Shown piece after piece: positions 51,566 to 59,827 of a DNA stretch of 64,000 nt. The notes below the pieces were generated by a model. That model did no database searches. It was not told where the DNA came from and worked only from the letters and a program-made list of their open reading frames with translations. The DNA is taken from the NCBI RefSeq assembly GCF_003931915.1, contig NZ_RSAA01000004.1:186001-250000 (forward strand). The letters run 5' to 3'. The translations under genes were made by a program, and so were the position numbers. Numbering within the stretch: position 1 is the stretch's first letter; each line of letters opens with the position of its first letter. This DNA comes from Saccharopolyspora rhizosphaerae (GTDB lineage Bacteria; Actinomycetota; Actinomycetes; Mycobacteriales; Pseudonocardiaceae).

Positions 51566-51686
51566 AATGCGCCGTTGAGCCGCATTGTGCTGGGCGAGGG
51601 CACCGACGACCCCGGCGACACGTCAAACTGGTCGAAGCCATCACATCCGCACTGCAACGTGCTGTTGAGCCGGGGGAAGGCTGGAG

Positions 51687-52247
51687 ATGCCTGGACGGGA
51701 CTTCGACGCGTCGAGCGAGGAGAAGGCCGCGCGGAACTCCGCGTTGCGGAACCAGATCGACGACATGCTCGACGACCTGCGCAAGCGCACTGCCGACATC
51801 CAGGAGAAGCAGGCCACCGCCGCGCAGCAGACCTTCGAGGTGGCCTCCGACGACGGCATGATCACCGTGCGGGTCGACGCCACCGGGACAGTGCAGGAAG
51901 TCCGCTTGTCGGACAAGGCGTTCGAGCGCACGAACCCGGAGAAGCTCGCGCGGGCGATCACCAGCGTGATCCGCGAAGCCTCCGGCACCGCGCAGCGGCA
52001 GTTGCACTCCGAGTTCGCGCCGCTGGCCGACACCTCCAACGTGCCCGAGGTGCCGGGAATGCCGTCGCTGCAGGGGCTTCTCAACAGCGGGCCTTTCCTC
52101 ACGCCGCCCGACCCGGCGGCCGAACGCGCGCAGCGCCGCAGCGAGGAGTCCACCTCGAGCCGGTCCGCGTCCGCACCGCAGGTGCAGGCCGGGCCCGACG
52201 ACTGGGACGACGACTGGGAGAGCAACCGCCGAGGGGGCCGCCGATGA
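51687..52247 (+). CDS. YbaB/EbfC-family protein of a type VII effector operon
   Basis: A 186-residue protein. The YbaB-like part covers about residues 15-115: a first long helix (LRNQIDDMLDDLRKRTADIQ), a three-strand sheet (GMITVRVDATGTVQEVRLSD) and a second helix. The C-terminal 70 residues are Pro/Ser-rich and acidic (DDWDDDWES). In actinobacteria such proteins often open operons with WXG100 proteins, as EspL-like chaperones do. ATG 51687 follows GGAAGGCTGGAG. Its stop overlaps the WXG100 start in ATGA. Confidence 0.85.
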   Translation: MPGRDFDASSEEKAARNSALRNQIDDMLDDLRKRTADIQEKQATAAQQTFEVASDDGMITVRVDATGTVQEVRLSDKAFERTNPEKLARAITSVIREASGTAQRQLHSEFAPLADTSNVPEVPGMPSLQGLLNSGPFLTPPDPAAERAQRRSEESTSSRSASAPQVQAGPDDWDDDWESNRRGGRR

Positions 52248-52573
52248 GCGGGAAGATGCGGATGCAGCCCGAGGAGATCCGCTCGGGCGGCAAGAAGATC
52301 GGCGACGCGGGGGACGACCTCGACCAGGTCCTCACGACCCTCAAGTCCGGTTTGGACGCTGAAGGTGAGTGCTGGGGCAACGACGAGGCCGGCCAGCAGT
52401 TCGGCGGCGACTACACCAAGGGCCGCGACAGCGTTCTGGAGAGCCTGAAGAAGGTCGTCAAGGCGCTCGGTGACATCAACGACAACCTCAAGGCCACCGC
52501 CGACGACACCGAATCCGGCGACCAGCAGGGCGCGAGCGGGATCGGCAAGGCCGGCTCGAACATGCCTCGGTAG
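52244..52573 (+). CDS. WXG100/ESX-like small secreted protein
   Basis: A 109-residue helical hairpin protein. The first helix runs about 7-40 and ends at ECWGNDEAGQQF, where the turn carries W-G in the WXG position. A second helix includes SLKKVVKALGDINDNLKATA. The C-terminal tail is Gly/Asp-rich. It is coupled to the YbaB gene by an ATGA overlap and lies 14 nt before the toxin gene. It is likely the ESX partner of the toxin. No secretion ATPase or membrane component is encoded in the window. Confidence 0.85.
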   Translation: MSGKMRMQPEEIRSGGKKIGDAGDDLDQVLTTLKSGLDAEGECWGNDEAGQQFGGDYTKGRDSVLESLKKVVKALGDINDNLKATADDTESGDQQGASGIGKAGSNMPR

Positions 52574-52587
52574 GGAGTTGACTTCAC

Positions 52588-55500
52588 GTGAGCATCGAGA
52601 TGCCCGACGAGGTCAAGTGGCTGTTGCCGATCGTCGTCGGACAGTCCTGGCCCGAGGGTGATGAAGACGCCATGCGCCGGATGGCCGACGCGTGGCGCAC
52701 GGCCGGCGAAGGCATCGCGAACGTCCAGGACGCGGGCAACGCGGGCGCGAACCAGGTCAACCTCGCGGTGGAGGGAGAGACCGGCGAGGCGTTCTCCAAG
52801 CTGTGGAAGGACGTCGGCGGCAGCGGCGACTCCGCTCTGGCGAAGCTCGAGGAAGCGTGCGAGAAGCTCGCCAAGTCCTGCGAGGACGCCGCGCTGGACG
52901 TCGAGCACACCAAGCTGACGATCATCGCGTCGCTGATCGCGCTGGCCATCCAGATCGCCGCGATGATCGCCGCCGCGCCCGCCACCTTCGGCGCCTCCAC
53001 CGCCGGTATCGCCGCAGCTCAGGGCATCACCCGGGCCGTGGTGCTGCAGATCTTCAAGCAACTCGTCTTCAGCATCCTCAAGAACGTGGCCATCGAGGTC
53101 GCCACCTCGGTCGCGATCGAGTTCGCCGTGCAGGGCACGCAGGTCGCCATGGGCACCCGCGACGGCCTCGACGGTGGGAAGTTCAAGGACGCGGCGATCA
53201 GCGGCGCCATCGGGGGTGCCGTGGGCGGTGTCTTCGAGGGCGCGGGCAAGGCGTTCAGCAAGGGGGCCGGTGACGCCATCGGCGACGCGGCCGGGGACGC
53301 CGCGGGCAGCGCGGGCACCGCAGCCGGGCGCGCCGCGGGTGACGCCGCAGGCGACGCGGCCGGTGAAGCCGCCGAGAGCGCCGCGAAGACCATCGGCAAG
53401 GAAGCCGTCAAGGAAGGCGCGCTCGGTGCCGCCGAGGGTGCGGTGGGCAGCGCCGCCGAGCAGCTCATCACCGAGGGCAAGCTCGACTGGGAAGACGTCG
53501 GCACGGGCGCGGTGTCGGGCGGTGCCACCGGCTCCGTCATGGGGGGCATCGGCGGGGCCAAGGAGCACTTCGGCGGGGACGTGGACGTCCCCGACACCGA
53601 CGGAGGTTCGTCGGGGTCGAACGGCTCCTCCTCGGGCGGTTCGTCGTCCGACCCGAGTTCTTCCTCCGACAGCTCAGGCAGTTCGACGTCCGACTCGAGC
53701 TCTTCCTCCGACAGCTCAGGCAGTTCGACGTCCGACTCGAGCTCTTCCTCCGACAGCTCAGGCAGTTCGACGTCCGACTCGAGCTCTTCCTCCGACAGCT
53801 CAGGCAGCTCGACGTCCGACCCGAGCTCTTCCTCCGACAGCTCAGGCAGCTCGACGTCCGACCCGAGCTCTTCCTCCGACAGCTCAGGCAGCTCGACGTC
53901 CGACCCGAGCTCTTCCTCCGACAGCTCCGGCAGCTCGACGTCCGACCCGAGCTCTTCCTCCGACAGCTCAGGCAGCTCGACGTCCGAGTCCGGCTCCTCC
54001 TCGGGTGGTTCGTCATCGGGCTCCGGTTCGAGCTCGAGCTCCACCTCGTCGGACCCGTCGGCTCCCGGCTCGGGCGCGGGCGGTTCCGAGGGTTCGACGT
54101 CCACCTCCGGAAGCAGTTCCTCGTCGGACCCCGGCACGTCCACGTCCTCCGACAGCGGTTCTTCCAGCACGTCCTCGTCGGGGTCGAGCACCTCCGCCGA
54201 TTCGGGCTCGAGCCGCTCCTCGGACTCCGGCGTCTCGACCGCGAGCACCGCGGATCCCAGCGGCTCGGACAGCGGCTCCCGTTCGTCGGAGAGCGGTTCC
54301 TCGTCATCCGGCGGTTCGTCGGAGGGCTCGTCCTCGGGCGGGTCCGATGGCCGGTCCCACTCCGACACCACTTCGTCCACGTCGGAGTCGTCGGGTCCGT
54401 CCACCACCTCGGAGTCCGGTTCGTCCGACGTGCGGTCGGGTTCGGACGGAAGTGGCGACACCACAGGCGGTTCCAGCCGTTCCGACTCCGGGTCCTCTTC
54501 GGACTCCAGTGGTTCGGCCTCCAGTGGTGACGGCTCTCGCTCCACTGACTCCGACGACAACGGCTCGCGCGGCGGCGGAGGCGTGGCCGGAGCAGGCGCC
54601 GCGCACGCAGGTGGTGGCGGGTCGTCGAGCTCGTCCCCGGGCGGGTCGGGTGGCACCTCGCTCAGCGGCACGCTGCCCACCGACGCGGACCGCGGCCCGA
54701 GCACTCCGGCCGGCACCTCGGCAGCCAACGTCGACGCCCCCGCAGCCCCTGCTGCCTCGGCCGCGCCGGGAGCGGCAGGCCCGACAGCACCGCGCACCGA
54801 CCAGCCCGCCTCGGGCGGAGCGGTCGGCGGGGGCATGGCCGGCGCCCCCGGATCGGCCGGCGTGGGTGGCTCGACACCGTCCGCAGGCGGCGGTCGCCCC
54901 GGCGGCGGGTGGACCGGCACCGCCGGATCCCCGGGCGCCGCAGCCCGCCCAGCTGGTGGTGACCCAGGTCCACGCCCGGAGCGCGCCGCCCCCCGCGGCT
55001 CAGCCACCCCGGACGCCCCGTCCCGCCCGAACACCAGGCCGGACAGCGGAGTCCCGCAGCACCGCGCCCCGCAAGGACCGGGCACCAGCTCCCCGCGTCC
55101 CGACGGTTCGGCGCCGCGCCCAGCCGGACCTGCTCAGCGCCCGGACACCCCAGGACCGGGCGGCACGCGGCCCGACAGCTCCACGCCACGTCCGGACGGG
55201 CCCGCCCAGCGCCCGGACGCGGGGTCGCCACACCCCGACGGGCCTGGTCAGCGGCCAGACGGCACGAGCCCGGAGGGCGCTCAGCGCCCGGGCGGCTCCG
55301 ACCCGAACGGATCCCGCCACGACGGCGACCGTCCCGACTCCCACAGCGACCGCGACGGCAACCAGGACGGCCAGGACCGCCACGACGGCGACCGGCCGCA
55401 GGACGGCGAGCCGGGCACCCCGGAGCGCCAGGAGCAGATCGACAACGCGGAGTCCACCCGCCAGGACACCCCGGCCGGGTCGTCGTTCCACACCGATCCG

Positions 55501-57870
55501 AACATGCGCGACCTGGCCAGCCGGGTCCCGGACGACGGCGTGCACCACACCGTCGACGTCCACGCCTTGCCCGACGGCCGCGTCCGCGTCGGCGACCACA
55601 CCTTCTCCGCGAAGGAGTTCGCCGACATGCTCCGCCGCGACCCGAACTGGGACGGCAGCAAGCCCGTCCGCCTGCTCTCCTGCGACGCAGGTACCAGCGG
55701 CCTGGCGCGGGACCTCTCGAACGAGCTCGGAGTCCCGGTCACCGCACCTCGAGGACTCGCCTGGACCGACGGCAACGGCCGCGTCTTCGCCTCCGACATG
55801 GGCCCCGACGGCCGCCCGGGCTGGCCCCCGAACGGCGGCTGGGACACCCACCACCCCGACGGCACACGAACCCCGGCCAGCAACGACGGCTTCCACCCCA
55901 CCCGCGACGGCGAGGACGCAGGACAGCAGCCGGATGGCAGCGAAGCTTCCCGGAAGGACGGCCTCTCGGAAGAGGACAGGCGGCAGCGCCAGGAAGCGTT
56001 GGTCGACGAGCTCAATTCACTTCCACGGGACAAGGCGCAAGCCATCTTCGACAGGTACTACCGTCAAGACTCCAACGGGGTGGTGTACCGGCGCGACGGA
56101 TACGCGAACGACCCGAACCTCTGGCACCAGGGTGCCACCGTTCCCCCGCTCCGCCTCGGTTCTGACGGCCGCTTCTCCATCAACGAGGGGCAGCGGGAAC
56201 TCACCGCTAGAGCTGACTACGTCGGAGAGCCTCGGCGGCAAAGCGGTCCGCTCCCGCAGGAATGGGCCCAGACGGCCGATGACCTCGCGCGCGGTAGACC
56301 TGGGATCCAGCAGTCCACCATGGAGGCGGCCGAGTCCGCGAAGGGCAACCCCGATCCGAACTCGCGGTGGACCGAATCTGGTGGGCAACCGCTTGACGAC
56401 ATCGATCGCAGCGGTTTCAACCACGCTCGCTCCGTGACCGGAGAGGCGCTGGGCGACCTGGCGCAGACGCACTTCTTCAGCGAACTGGAGCAGCGCGGCT
56501 ACCGCTTCGACGACGAACGCATCGCGACCGGCAACGCAGGCCACTTCGACGGGTTCAGGCGGGGCATCGACCCCGACGGGAACTCGGTCTACGTCGTCAC
56601 CGAGGCGAAGGGGCCGAGCGCCGGCCTCGGCGCTCGGCAAGGCTTCGAGCAGGGAACGCCTGAATACTTCAAGTCCGTCTTAGACGCGATGGACAAGCGA
56701 GGCGGTCACGAAGCCGTCATCGCCCGGGAGCTCTCCGATGCTCTCGGCGATGGCCGGGTCGAGTACCACCTCGTCCAGGCGAACGTCGAGCCCGTCGGCA
56801 CCAACTCCACAGACGCTCCGTCCTCTGGTACATCGGTGCCGCACGAGCGGTACTCCGGGTACACCGAGAAGCAGTTCGACCTGAACCCCGATCGTCCGCT
56901 CCACGAGCCACCGAGCTCGCGCCCGGACGCAGATGGCCCTGAAGCGCCTCCGGAGAACGCCGAAGCACGCGGAGGCGCCCCGGATGAGGACACGGGGACC
57001 GCTGAACACGAACAACGGGATGGCGCAGAGGCCCAAGAACCGTCGGACTACAAGCCACCGGCGGCCGAAGGGCCGGCAGCCCATCCTGTTGACTTCTCGC
57101 ACACACCGCTGGAGGACCCAGGCGCCACCCCTGACTTCTCCGAGAGCGGGCCTTCTGACCGCACTCGCGGCTCAGCTGTGGAATCGCTCCCAGAAGACCG
57201 CGTCAAGCGGAACGACAACGGCCTCATCGCCGAAGTCAAGGACGCCGAGGGGAACTTCGTCCCCATCCACGACTACGTCCAACAGCTCTCCCAAGAACGG
57301 GCCGAAGCCATCGCCCCGGGAACGCACAAGAAGGAAGGGCCATGTTCGGCGGTCGCCATCGACCTCCAAACTGGGTTGATCACCGAAGGCGTGAACGGAC
57401 GCCCGAACGATGTGCTGAAACCCGAGAACGTCCACCCGCTGCTGCGGGAGAACCTCGAGTCGCTCGGCCAGTGGCAGTACCCGGTTCGGGAGTCCGAAAC
57501 CACCCTCGCGACCAACCACGACGGGGAGGCGGTCGTGCTCGACGGGCAGCCCCATTTCGACAAGCCGCTACGGCATGCCGAGGTCAAGGCCGTCAACGAA
57601 CTGCTGTGGGCGCGCGAGCGAAGCGGCGATCCGCTGACACGGGAGGCTCTGGAACAGCTGCGCATCGATCCGCGCTGGGTTCGCGACGGCAGGAACATGG
57701 CCGTCGGCCAGGAGGCCCCTGCCTGCGCGAACTGCGATTCCGTGCTTCGCGGTGTGCCCAGCTACACCGGGCGCTTCTCGTACAACCCGTTCGACTATCG
57801 GTACCCTGACAAGCACTCGGTAGAGAACGACAACGGTTTGCGGCGGGACAGCGAGGACTCCGGTGGATAA
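52588..57870 (+). CDS. Polymorphic toxin: WXG100-like head, repeat linker, protease-like module, nuclease-like module, YwqJ-type deaminase
   Basis: 1,760 residues. Residues 1-110 form a WXG100-like helical head as in CpnT-type effectors; about 115-205 are hydrophobic helices; about 210-330 are Gly/Ala-rich with GDAAGDAAG repeats. Eight 14-residue Ser/Asp repeats (356-467) and a long Ser- then Pro/Arg-rich disordered stretch follow. Residues about 970-1110 resemble a His/Cys protease-like domain (VHALPDGRVRVGD with H992; LLSCDAGTSG with C1032). About 1290-1400 look PD-(D/E)XK-like (D1321, E1339-A-K1341). The last 220 residues match YwqJ deaminases: C1586 SAVAID, H1663-A-E1665 and P1711-A-C-A-N-C1716. 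Probably an interbacterial effector using the type VII route. It overlaps the immunity gene by 8 nt. Confidence 0.87.
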   Translation: MSIEMPDEVKWLLPIVVGQSWPEGDEDAMRRMADAWRTAGEGIANVQDAGNAGANQVNLAVEGETGEAFSKLWKDVGGSGDSALAKLEEACEKLAKSCEDAALDVEHTKLTIIASLIALAIQIAAMIAAAPATFGASTAGIAAAQGITRAVVLQIFKQLVFSILKNVAIEVATSVAIEFAVQGTQVAMGTRDGLDGGKFKDAAISGAIGGAVGGVFEGAGKAFSKGAGDAIGDAAGDAAGSAGTAAGRAAGDAAGDAAGEAAESAAKTIGKEAVKEGALGAAEGAVGSAAEQLITEGKLDWEDVGTGAVSGGATGSVMGGIGGAKEHFGGDVDVPDTDGGSSGSNGSSSGGSSSDPSSSSDSSGSSTSDSSSSSDSSGSSTSDSSSSSDSSGSSTSDSSSSSDSSGSSTSDPSSSSDSSGSSTSDPSSSSDSSGSSTSDPSSSSDSSGSSTSDPSSSSDSSGSSTSESGSSSGGSSSGSGSSSSSTSSDPSAPGSGAGGSEGSTSTSGSSSSSDPGTSTSSDSGSSSTSSSGSSTSADSGSSRSSDSGVSTASTADPSGSDSGSRSSESGSSSSGGSSEGSSSGGSDGRSHSDTTSSTSESSGPSTTSESGSSDVRSGSDGSGDTTGGSSRSDSGSSSDSSGSASSGDGSRSTDSDDNGSRGGGGVAGAGAAHAGGGGSSSSSPGGSGGTSLSGTLPTDADRGPSTPAGTSAANVDAPAAPAASAAPGAAGPTAPRTDQPASGGAVGGGMAGAPGSAGVGGSTPSAGGGRPGGGWTGTAGSPGAAARPAGGDPGPRPERAAPRGSATPDAPSRPNTRPDSGVPQHRAPQGPGTSSPRPDGSAPRPAGPAQRPDTPGPGGTRPDSSTPRPDGPAQRPDAGSPHPDGPGQRPDGTSPEGAQRPGGSDPNGSRHDGDRPDSHSDRDGNQDGQDRHDGDRPQDGEPGTPERQEQIDNAESTRQDTPAGSSFHTDPNMRDLASRVPDDGVHHTVDVHALPDGRVRVGDHTFSAKEFADMLRRDPNWDGSKPVRLLSCDAGTSGLARDLSNELGVPVTAPRGLAWTDGNGRVFASDMGPDGRPGWPPNGGWDTHHPDGTRTPASNDGFHPTRDGEDAGQQPDGSEASRKDGLSEEDRRQRQEALVDELNSLPRDKAQAIFDRYYRQDSNGVVYRRDGYANDPNLWHQGATVPPLRLGSDGRFSINEGQRELTARADYVGEPRRQSGPLPQEWAQTADDLARGRPGIQQSTMEAAESAKGNPDPNSRWTESGGQPLDDIDRSGFNHARSVTGEALGDLAQTHFFSELEQRGYRFDDERIATGNAGHFDGFRRGIDPDGNSVYVVTEAKGPSAGLGARQGFEQGTPEYFKSVLDAMDKRGGHEAVIARELSDALGDGRVEYHLVQANVEPVGTNSTDAPSSGTSVPHERYSGYTEKQFDLNPDRPLHEPPSSRPDADGPEAPPENAEARGGAPDEDTGTAEHEQRDGAEAQEPSDYKPPAAEGPAAHPVDFSHTPLEDPGATPDFSESGPSDRTRGSAVESLPEDRVKRNDNGLIAEVKDAEGNFVPIHDYVQQLSQERAEAIAPGTHKKEGPCSAVAIDLQTGLITEGVNGRPNDVLKPENVHPLLRENLESLGQWQYPVRESETTLATNHDGEAVVLDGQPHFDKPLRHAEVKAVNELLWARERSGDPLTREALEQLRIDPRWVRDGRNMAVGQEAPACANCDSVLRGVPSYTGRFSYNPFDYRYPDKHSVENDNGLRRDSEDSGG
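53653..53988 (+). repeat. Eight 42-bp tandem repeats inside the toxin gene
   Basis: Eight copies encode PSSSSDSSGSSTSD or the variant starting with Ser. The DNA units are nearly identical, with third-base changes such as TCA/TCC and TTC/CTC. The block is a disordered acidic linker, and copy number is likely to vary among strains. Confidence 0.92.
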
Positions 57871-58231
57871 TGTGCGCGTCAACCGGGCGGACACGTCGAT
57901 GGACGACCGCATGATCACGACGTACCAGGGATCTCCGTTCACCGGCGAGGTGGTCGACTTCGCCGCGGACGGGACGGTGATCGAGCTCACCAGCTACGAG
58001 AACGGCATCGAGCACGGTCCGCAGGTGGAGTGGTTCCCGAACGGCACCAAGCAGCTGGAAGGACGGTGCGACCGCGGGAAGGCCGTGGGTGAATGGCGCG
58101 AGTGGCACTCGAACGGCCGGCTCGCCCGGTACGAGGAGTTCGACGAGTTCGGCGAGCTGCTCAAGCGGCAGCGTTGGAGCGAAGCCGGCGAGTTGACCGA
58201 GGACCACACCGGCACACCTCCCCGCCGCTGA
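57863..58231 (+). CDS. YwqK-family immunity protein (MORN-like repeats)
   Basis: A 122-residue cytoplasmic protein with MORN_2-type repeats. The turns read GEVVDFAADGTVIELTSYEN, GPQVEWFPNGTKQLEGRC and GEWREWHSNGRLARYEEF. This is the pattern of the YwqK antitoxins that pair with YwqJ deaminase toxins. The GTG at 57863 overlaps the toxin stop by 8 nt; GTG 57872 is an alternative. The overlap ensures that toxin and immunity are made together. Its likely role is to block the C-terminal deaminase; protection against the internal nuclease-like module is not explained. Confidence 0.85.
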   Translation: MDNVRVNRADTSMDDRMITTYQGSPFTGEVVDFAADGTVIELTSYENGIEHGPQVEWFPNGTKQLEGRCDRGKAVGEWREWHSNGRLARYEEFDEFGELLKRQRWSEAGELTEDHTGTPPRR

Positions 58232-58276
58232 GAGCGCGCCAGGTCCCGGGTTCAGCCGAGGGTTGCACCCGCCGCG

Positions 58277-58458: not shown

Positions 58459-59130
58459 TCAGGAGCGACGGGACAGGTGGTCCGCGGATCTCGTCGTCTC
58501 TGGGAGGCGGTACTTCGGTGCCAGGTCGAGAACCAGGTCGCAGGCGTCGTCGAGGGTGTAGCGGTGGCCGATGGAGACGAACACCGGCTTGACGCCGGTC
58601 TGCGTGCGGAGGGCTCTGCCGACCTCCTCTCCGTCCATGGTCACGGGTGACCACGAGCCTCGTGGTTCTGCGGGTGGCTCGTAGTGGCCCATCGCGGTCT
58701 TGCCGACGCCGATCGACGGCAGGTCGGTGAGGACGCCGAGGTGGCAGGCGAGGCCGCAGCGCCGGGGATGAGCGAGGCCGTGGCCGTCGCAGACGAGGAC
58801 GTCCGGGACCACCCTCAGCTCCTGCAAGGCCTTGAGCAGAGCGGGCGCCTCGCGGAAGGCGAACAACCCTGGGACGTACGGGAATTCGGCGCGGCCTCGG
58901 ACCGCTGCGCTGTCCACCAGGGACAACGTGGCGACGTCCAGGACCGTCACCGCGGCGACGAGCTCGTCCGAGGACTCGCGGTAGTCCACGTCCAGGCCGG
59001 CTGCGGTGCGCACCTCCGCCGGCTGCTCGTCCGTGCGGACCAGCGACCGGAGCCGCTCCTGGATCGACACGGCTTCGGACTCGGTCGTCGGCCAGTCGTG
59101 CAGCTCGCGCACCTCGATCACGGACGTCAT
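58459..59130 (-). CDS. nfi: Endonuclease V
   Basis: Cuts DNA one base 3' of deaminated bases such as hypoxanthine. The 223-residue protein has GLDVDYRE near residue 45 (first catalytic Asp), then VPGLFAFREAPALLKAL, LVCDGHGLAHPRRCGLACHL (second Asp) and IGVGKTAMG. ATG 59130 start. It is convergent with a deaminase toxin operon, and endonuclease V repairs deaminated adenine; this closeness may be chance. It lies 52 nt downstream of the racemase gene on the same strand. Confidence 0.95.
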   Translation of the reverse strand: MTSVIEVRELHDWPTTESEAVSIQERLRSLVRTDEQPAEVRTAAGLDVDYRESSDELVAAVTVLDVATLSLVDSAAVRGRAEFPYVPGLFAFREAPALLKALQELRVVPDVLVCDGHGLAHPRRCGLACHLGVLTDLPSIGVGKTAMGHYEPPAEPRGSWSPVTMDGEEVGRALRTQTGVKPVFVSIGHRYTLDDACDLVLDLAPKYRLPETTRSADHLSRRS

Positions 59131-59182
59131 CCTATGGCCCCGACTCCCGCGCCTGGCGCCAGCAGGCGGCGCACCTCCTGCC

Positions 59183-59827
59183 TCAGCGGGCGGGTGTTCC
59201 GCCGAGCGCGCCGAGGACTCCGAGGCCGGTGCGGATCGGGTCGAGGACCAGAGGTAGTCCCGGTTCCTGCTCGGCGGTGTCGACCGCGGAGCAGCCGTTG
59301 ACCACCGCCGTGACCCCGGCGGCGCGGGCCGCGATCAGAGCGGGGCGCATGGCCGCCGACCAGCGGGCGGGGTCGGTGATGTCCTCCACGTCGAGGTCGA
59401 GGACGCTGACCTCGTGGAACGCGGAGTTCCAGCCGTAGGCGGAGATGCGGTCGCGCAGCTCGGTGGCGATCGCCGTGTTCCGGGTGATGGCGCCGACGCG
59501 GTGCCCGGCGGCGACCGCGGCACCGACGGTCAGGCGGAGCAGGCCCAGCGCGGGACGGCCGCCCAGCGTGCCGCCGTCGTCGGGCACCGCGGGGTCCAGG
59601 ACGCAGTCCGGCAGGACCGCGTCGCAGCCGGGCGCGTCGGCGAGGGCCTCGGCGACCAGGGCCTCGGACCGGCGCACCTCCTCGGCGGTGTTGAGGGCGC
59701 GCGGGCCGTCCTGGAGGTCTCGCAGCACCACCTGGATCCCGGGCGGGGCCAGCGAGTCGTAGCGGGCTTGGCGGCGGGCCACTTCGGCTGGTCCGACGGT
59801 GATCGGGGTGACGGCGTGGATGAGCAC
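59183..59827 (-). CDS. Aspartate/glutamate/hydantoin racemase family protein
   Basis: A 214-residue cofactor-independent racemase-like protein. It starts MLIHAVTPITVGPAEVARRQ. The two cysteine regions expected for this family are CDAVLPDCVLDPAV near residue 80 and VVNGCSAVDTAEQ near 185, giving the acid/base Cys pair. GTG 59827 is chosen because AGGAGG lies 6 nt upstream. It is last gene of the cyclic-amidohydrolase operon, 11 nt after the MmgE/PrpD gene. It may epimerise a hydantoin- or carbamoyl-type intermediate. Confidence 0.82.
   Translation of the reverse strand: MLIHAVTPITVGPAEVARRQARYDSLAPPGIQVVLRDLQDGPRALNTAEEVRRSEALVAEALADAPGCDAVLPDCVLDPAVPDDGGTLGGRPALGLLRLTVGAAVAAGHRVGAITRNTAIATELRDRISAYGWNSAFHEVSVLDLDVEDITDPARWSAAMRPALIAARAAGVTAVVNGCSAVDTAEQEPGLPLVLDPIRTGLGVLGALGGTPAR

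Follow-up and report, generated by a model that had tools for sequence, protein, structure and literature searches.

The window analyzed here, a 64,000-nucleotide stretch of Saccharopolyspora rhizosphaerae DNA, encodes what is probably an antibacterial WXG100/type VII polymorphic toxin whose trunk carries two complete tips in tandem, a Tox-REase-6-like module followed by a YwqJ-family deaminase. As judged from sequence comparison, the origin of this two-tip stack is traceable, since congeners display both the empty and the replaced state at the same locus. The features of the locus are as follows (window positions, strand).

51575..52573 (+): 332-aa ORF with WXG100 at its C-terminus (Pfam PF06013, E 2.3e-8), which stops 14 bp upstream of the toxin gene
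52588..57870 (+): polymorphic toxin gene, 1,760 aa, two stacked tips (GTG start, ORF)
52600..53034 (+): WXG100_2 head, aa 5-149 (Pfam PF25547, E 1.7e-31)
53641..54002 (+): Ser/Asp linker, 42-bp tandem repeat (TRF, 8.6 copies, 96% match)
55426..55917 (+): cysteine protease module modelled as C80/MARTX-like (clan CD), H992 and C1032, about aa 947-1110 (alignment, model, Foldseek)
55975..56190 (+): pre-toxin segment, about aa 1130-1201 (sequence comparison)
56353..56886 (+): Tox-REase-6-like module, about aa 1256-1433, with YxGYxxxxFDL, the C-terminal signature of its relatives, at its end (sequence comparison, alignment)
57193..57867 (+): YwqJ-family deaminase tip, about aa 1536-1760, HAE and CxxC (Pfam PF14431)
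57863..58231 (+): MORN_2 protein, 122 aa, predicted YwqK-type antidote (Pfam PF07661, 30.3 bits against a cut-off of 29.6)
58459..59130 (-): endonuclease V gene, convergent neighbour (Pfam PF04493, E 6e-69)

The first-pass annotation had described a single 1,760-residue chain composed of a head, helices, a Ser/Asp linker and three modules, and this was confirmed by the ORF, Pfam, TRF and the sequence. The order along the chain is WXG100_2 head, hydrophobic helices (visible in the sequence), Ser/Asp linker, His/Cys module, PD-(D/E)XK-like module and YwqJ-family deaminase tip, and Pfam recognized the two ends alone (WXG100_2 and YwqJ-deaminase). GC3 values of the toxin gene ranged from 0.65 to 0.94 across all segments, as expected for coding sequence in this genome. 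The 332-aa WXG100 ORF, which is retained in two congeners (L080 and L152), is the probable export partner of the toxin. EccC was found above the cut-off in the genome, which speaks for our explanation; its position on a contig other than that of the toxin counts against it. PADLOC gave no result, no matching record was found among annotated phages, and annotated plasmids yielded one, a Streptomyces YwqJ-related deaminase (29%).

The YwqJ-deaminase match (PF14431, aa 1654-1720) had an E of 8e-9 and 36.2 bits against a cut-off of 25.9, and the C-terminal part alone gave an E of 5.5e-11. The deaminase motifs are intact (H1663-A-E1665 and C1713-x2-C1716), and HAE and CxxC were invariant in 10/10 rows of alignment A4, which omitted four of 14 deaminase rows, two of them with HGE. 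From its Pfam score and zinc motifs, the tip is assigned to the YwqJ-family deaminases, and its dN/dS of 0.14 relative to the syntenic congener L152 indicates purifying selection. In a congener, a deaminase match (G549:C23:467473-468417) contains one in-frame stop. The MORN_2 gene starts 8 bp before the end of the toxin gene, and its relatives lie directly downstream of 13 of the 15 deaminase-bearing toxins, the two exceptions (L112 and L116) carrying the deaminase inside the chain; it is the predicted immunity gene behind the deaminase tip, in keeping with a WXG100 polymorphic toxin. The first-pass annotation had read the chain as a polymorphic toxin tipped by a YwqJ-type deaminase, which was borne out by Pfam, by tips that vary behind a conserved trunk (see below) and by the overlapping MORN_2 (YwqK-type) gene.

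The B. subtilis YwqJ/YwqK LXG pair, as described in excerpts of two papers (PMC8321402, PMC6562991), likewise combines a deaminase-type tip, an antidote gene directly behind it and a head of the WXG/LXG kind; YwqJ has 602 aa and one tip, whereas the window chain has 1,760 aa, a C80-like protease and a second tip. YwqJ is toxic, and mutants were rescued by ectopic antitoxins (excerpts of Kobayashi 2021, PMC8321402).

The His/Cys module had no Pfam match. Its model (pLDDT 85.6, pTM 0.82) found as best PDB match by Foldseek the V. cholerae RTX cysteine protease domain (3gcd, E 8.7e-4, TM-score 0.45), followed by legumains, SAVED-CHAT and the TcdB protease domain, a fold match that upheld an earlier CHAT/C80 guess. 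Both H992 and C1032 were invariant in 16/16 rows of alignment A3, chosen out of 41 His/Cys-module rows; five omitted rows, which are degenerate repeats (four in one giant chain, one in L128), lack the His, and one of them also lacks the Cys. Model and alignment together place a His and Cys dyad on a caspase-like fold, as in the C80-like members of clan CD. Besides the best fold match, the module resembles the MARTX/C80 domain in that His precedes Cys and in its position upstream of the effector part; it differs in its identity of 16%, in its length of about 165 aa and in that autocleavage is here a prediction. PMC3482391 describes caspase-like domains of this sort, lying within the chain shortly before the toxin tip, as likely releasing peptidases. 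The dN/dS of the module relative to L152 (0.13) indicates purifying selection.

Nine other loci from the family search carry this module at 84-89% identity with differing tips, namely an HNH/GH-E nuclease (L077, L079), a BURPS668_1122 deaminase (L084), an REase (L080) and, as weak matches of 24-33%, YwqJ-like deaminases (L081, L082, L083, L085); no tip was recognized in the ninth (L078). Remoter chains ended in a NucA/NucB-like tip (L086, under the Pfam cut-off) or Endonuclea_NS_2 (L091 over and L115 under the cut-off). In both the family and the His/Cys searches, loci of matches from the 31st rank on were fetched only in part. Tips have thus been swapped behind a conserved trunk, to which the His/Cys module, modelled as a C80/MARTX-like (clan CD) protease, belongs. 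Behind the deaminase-bearing toxins of two of these loci (L081, L082), further Imm49-type genes were observed as orphan antidotes.

According to excerpts of PMC3482391, Tox-REase-6 domains have the motif E, D, ExK, Q, Y, occur in T7SS (WXG) toxins and are partnered by Imm49. The window module has all of these residues (E1286, D1321, E1339, K1341, Q1355 and Y1360). D1321, E1339, K1341, Q1355, G1356 and Y1360 were invariant in 16/16 selected REase rows, and the omitted rows, inspected by eye, keep D, E, K, Q, G and Y too; the first E is missing in the Amycolatopsis giants. The model (pLDDT 85.1, pTM 0.77) had no significant Foldseek match in the PDB (best E 0.14) or in BFVD (best E 0.014, an R354-like nuclease), known PD-(D/E)XK proteins (lambda exonuclease, EndoMS, SwaI, R354) appearing among the weak structural matches only. 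Pfam searches of 16 REase members gave scattered weak matches and nothing further, and PDB sequence searches with profiles of the His/Cys, REase and deaminase modules gave nothing useful. The earlier PD-(D/E)XK guess therefore held as far as motifs and the Imm49 genes beside relatives are concerned and found no backing in the structure searches, a point that also counts against a two-tip toxin; we regard both the restriction endonuclease fold and membership of Tox-REase-6 as probable. FDG and EAK in the window sequence pointed to Tox-REase-5 as an alternative, which was rejected: relatives do not keep FDG, and there was no Tox-REase Pfam match.

We checked the position of the REase in 21 other chains (11 of the 21 other genomes of the family search, and 10 new loci from a set of 13, the remaining three having already been counted). 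It lay at most 80 residues from the stop in 17 of them, often ending in YxGYxxxxFDL, and was internal in L102, L103, L128 and L132. With L155 added to these 17, there were 18 C-terminal REases, and the next gene belonged to the Imm49 family in 12 cases and was SseB-like in four, neither being found in two; Imm49 was identified by Pfam on the L096 protein (E 9.4e-61). Because the module usually stands near the stop and is then followed by Imm49, it looks like a complete second warhead. The window module shares with the Tox-REase-6/Imm49 system its motif, its WXG-type toxins and its occurrence in actinobacteria, and differs in being non-C-terminal and in lacking an Imm49 gene. REase modules were also observed in open frames of 12,149 aa (G113:C1:140868) and 12,536 aa (G092:C1:1413930), where they are C-terminal with an SseB-like gene next, and in frames of 18,658 aa (G064:C1:3518543) and 23,843 aa (G018:C4:194853).

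Congeners bear on how the second tip arrived. The syntenic congener L152 lacks the REase, and its toxin gene, deaminase, antidote and neighbouring endonuclease V gene correspond to those of the window. It aligned with window positions 55344-55947 (82%), 57037-58214 (75%) and the endonuclease V gene (77%); in place of 1.09 kb in the window it has about 0.38 kb. No REase match was found in L152, and the two share the pre-toxin segment. This segment also stands ahead of the REase in two giant chains. In the congener L080, the same slot holds an REase tip (32% identical to that of the window) and Imm49, followed by a MORN copy that is split over two frames and whose DNA is 80% identical to window positions 57823-58236. 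A further congener (L155) has REase and Imm49 at this locus. Read most simply, these sequences indicate a deaminase-bearing locus that received REase cassettes on more than one occasion. The insert in the window has neither a stop nor Imm49, and the old deaminase tip would therefore have stayed in the chain.

The first-pass annotation had called two candidate toxic activities in one effector unusual, and within the family this was upheld. Among 150 family genomes (E 1e-3), the REase was found in 22, the deaminase in 22 and both in four, three of which (G029, G032, G115) have them on different contigs; the genome of the window alone (1/150) has both in one frame. None of 21 other genomes of the genus had both modules in a less sensitive search, which missed the REase of G063. 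That the stack is known from one genome is a point against our explanation, and a combination unique in the data set is also what an assembly error joining two tips in one open frame would produce. Such an error is very improbable, as homology and reading frame hold on both flanks of the insert, the contig measures 330 kb, and GC3 is that of coding sequence in all segments.

Multi-toxin chains are already in print; excerpts of PMC3482391 describe a 13,652-aa Streptomyces protein and a Wolbachia chain with a deaminase and a latrotoxin tip. Those chains resemble ours in having more than one toxin domain and caspase-like domains inside; the window chain differs from them in its order of protease, REase and deaminase on a short WXG trunk and in having a congener that shows the pre-insert state. 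Another multi-toxin chain, cut by the locus end, was found in Actinomadura kijaniata (L128:2641-12573), with a WXG100_2 head, a C80-like module, an REase, two ADP-ribosyltransferase stretches and two more C80-like modules. An Imm49 gene probably lies about 4 kb beyond the fetched part of this locus, on the other strand.

We further searched for an antidote to the REase. No Imm49 was found over the cut-off in the genome (best 12.8 bits; none at E 1e-3) or in the window by tblastn at E 1, and a remnant of it between the two tips was rejected on the same search. A relative of the SseB-like gene of the giants was likewise not found (best E 0.09). A weak SseB match (G000:C29:139109-139381, 26.9 bits against a cut-off of 21) falls within an open frame of 1,608 aa, at a distance of about 104 kb from the toxin. 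A 205-aa ORF (58684-59301, +) was rejected as second antidote, being antisense inside the endonuclease V gene. As no REase antidote was found, which also weighs against two working tips, the REase may have lost its toxicity or be silent in the producing strain. Along this line, the module could be a former tip, buried in frame and now a structural or translocation spacer, with only the deaminase killing. The absence of Imm49 or any other recognized antidote, the retention of the MORN gene alone and the single occurrence of the stack in 150 family genomes fit such a spacer, which we nevertheless consider unlikely, given that no motif residue (first E, D, ExK, Q, Y) is lost, that the reading frame is open, and that REase modules are also internal in the giant chains L102 and L103 and in L128.

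It is also conceivable, if somewhat doubtful, that both tips act, with the MORN_2 protein or the trunk serving as a block to both or an unrecognized antidote elsewhere covering the REase. Four giant-chain REase tips have an SseB-like neighbour in place of Imm49, so that REases of this kind are not tied to one immunity protein, and the window REase grouped weakly with the giant-chain REases (75/86) in a tree that is too weak to place it. However, the MORN protein is of the usual size (115-125 aa) with no added domain, and no candidate antidote stands next door. The two-tip toxin is our preferred explanation. The locus swaps tips, and an REase tip would have been inserted in frame, without its Imm49 gene, between the trunk and the older deaminase tip, which would have been kept rather than displaced. 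The chain would be exported with WXG100 partners, and the clan-CD protease would cut it near or inside the target, freeing a fragment with both tips. The deaminase would then attack bases of nucleic acid or nucleotides, the REase would cleave DNA, and the MORN_2 protein would shield the producer from the deaminase; the producer would also have to be resistant to the REase, if this is active.

The endonuclease V gene was single-copy in 33/33 genomes examined. It lies at most 4 kb from a deaminase match in 11/20 other family genomes (of 21 with a match, G096 being left out) and 6.0 kb from one in G353, and was not near a deaminase match in 11/11 genomes of genus g53; by our own arithmetic, the chance expectation is about 0.001 per genome, the relatives not being independent. 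Four of the 11 close cases (G129, G101, G137, G072) are of the syntenic type of the window, in which the convergent endonuclease V gene is kept irrespective of the tip (L077, L079, L084). The other seven loci (L109, L110, L111, L165-L168; five of genus g20, plus g31 and g45) are non-syntenic, sharing no other tested neighbour of the window. In these seven, the deaminase, MORN gene(s) and endonuclease V are on one strand, and the last MORN stop overlaps or lies at most 49 bp from the endonuclease V match or start. At one of them, seven or eight MORN_2-type matches stand in a row between the deaminase gene and endonuclease V (L167:8649-12380), an antidote array.

In B. subtilis, ywqJ, ywqK and ywqL lie in one set (excerpts of PMC8321402). 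This set, ywqH-L, closes with the gene for YwqL, a homologue of endonuclease V that acts on uracil, hypoxanthine and AP sites (excerpts of PMC6364969). The window locus thus resembles this set in having an endonuclease V homologue, and differs in that its gene faces the other way. A literature search, which excluded a 2011 deaminase survey, found no paper linking YwqJ and endonuclease V as toxin and repair gene. As a speculation that we rate as rather improbable, YwqJ-type toxins could be DNA base deaminases, with endonuclease V as a second, repair-type self-protection beside MORN; deaminase and nuclease tips would be delivered together, base damage and cutting would reinforce each other, and the producer would rely on antidote and repair. 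Against a protective role, excerpts of PMC8321402 report that the antitoxin rescued a B. subtilis strain without ywqH-L and that YwqJ had no effect on chromosome or rRNA, small molecules being suggested as its target. Endonuclease V could also simply mark the site where such toxins settle.

Overall, these results describe a known kind of effector, a WXG polymorphic toxin with a YwqJ tip, in an unusual two-tip form, and pose the question of how the producer survives a second warhead without its usual antidote. The recurring order of deaminase, MORN and endonuclease V suggests a testable guess at the target of YwqJ-type toxins. The locus itself, as far as its sequences can be read, shows the addition of a tip to a polymorphic toxin rather than the replacement of the old one.
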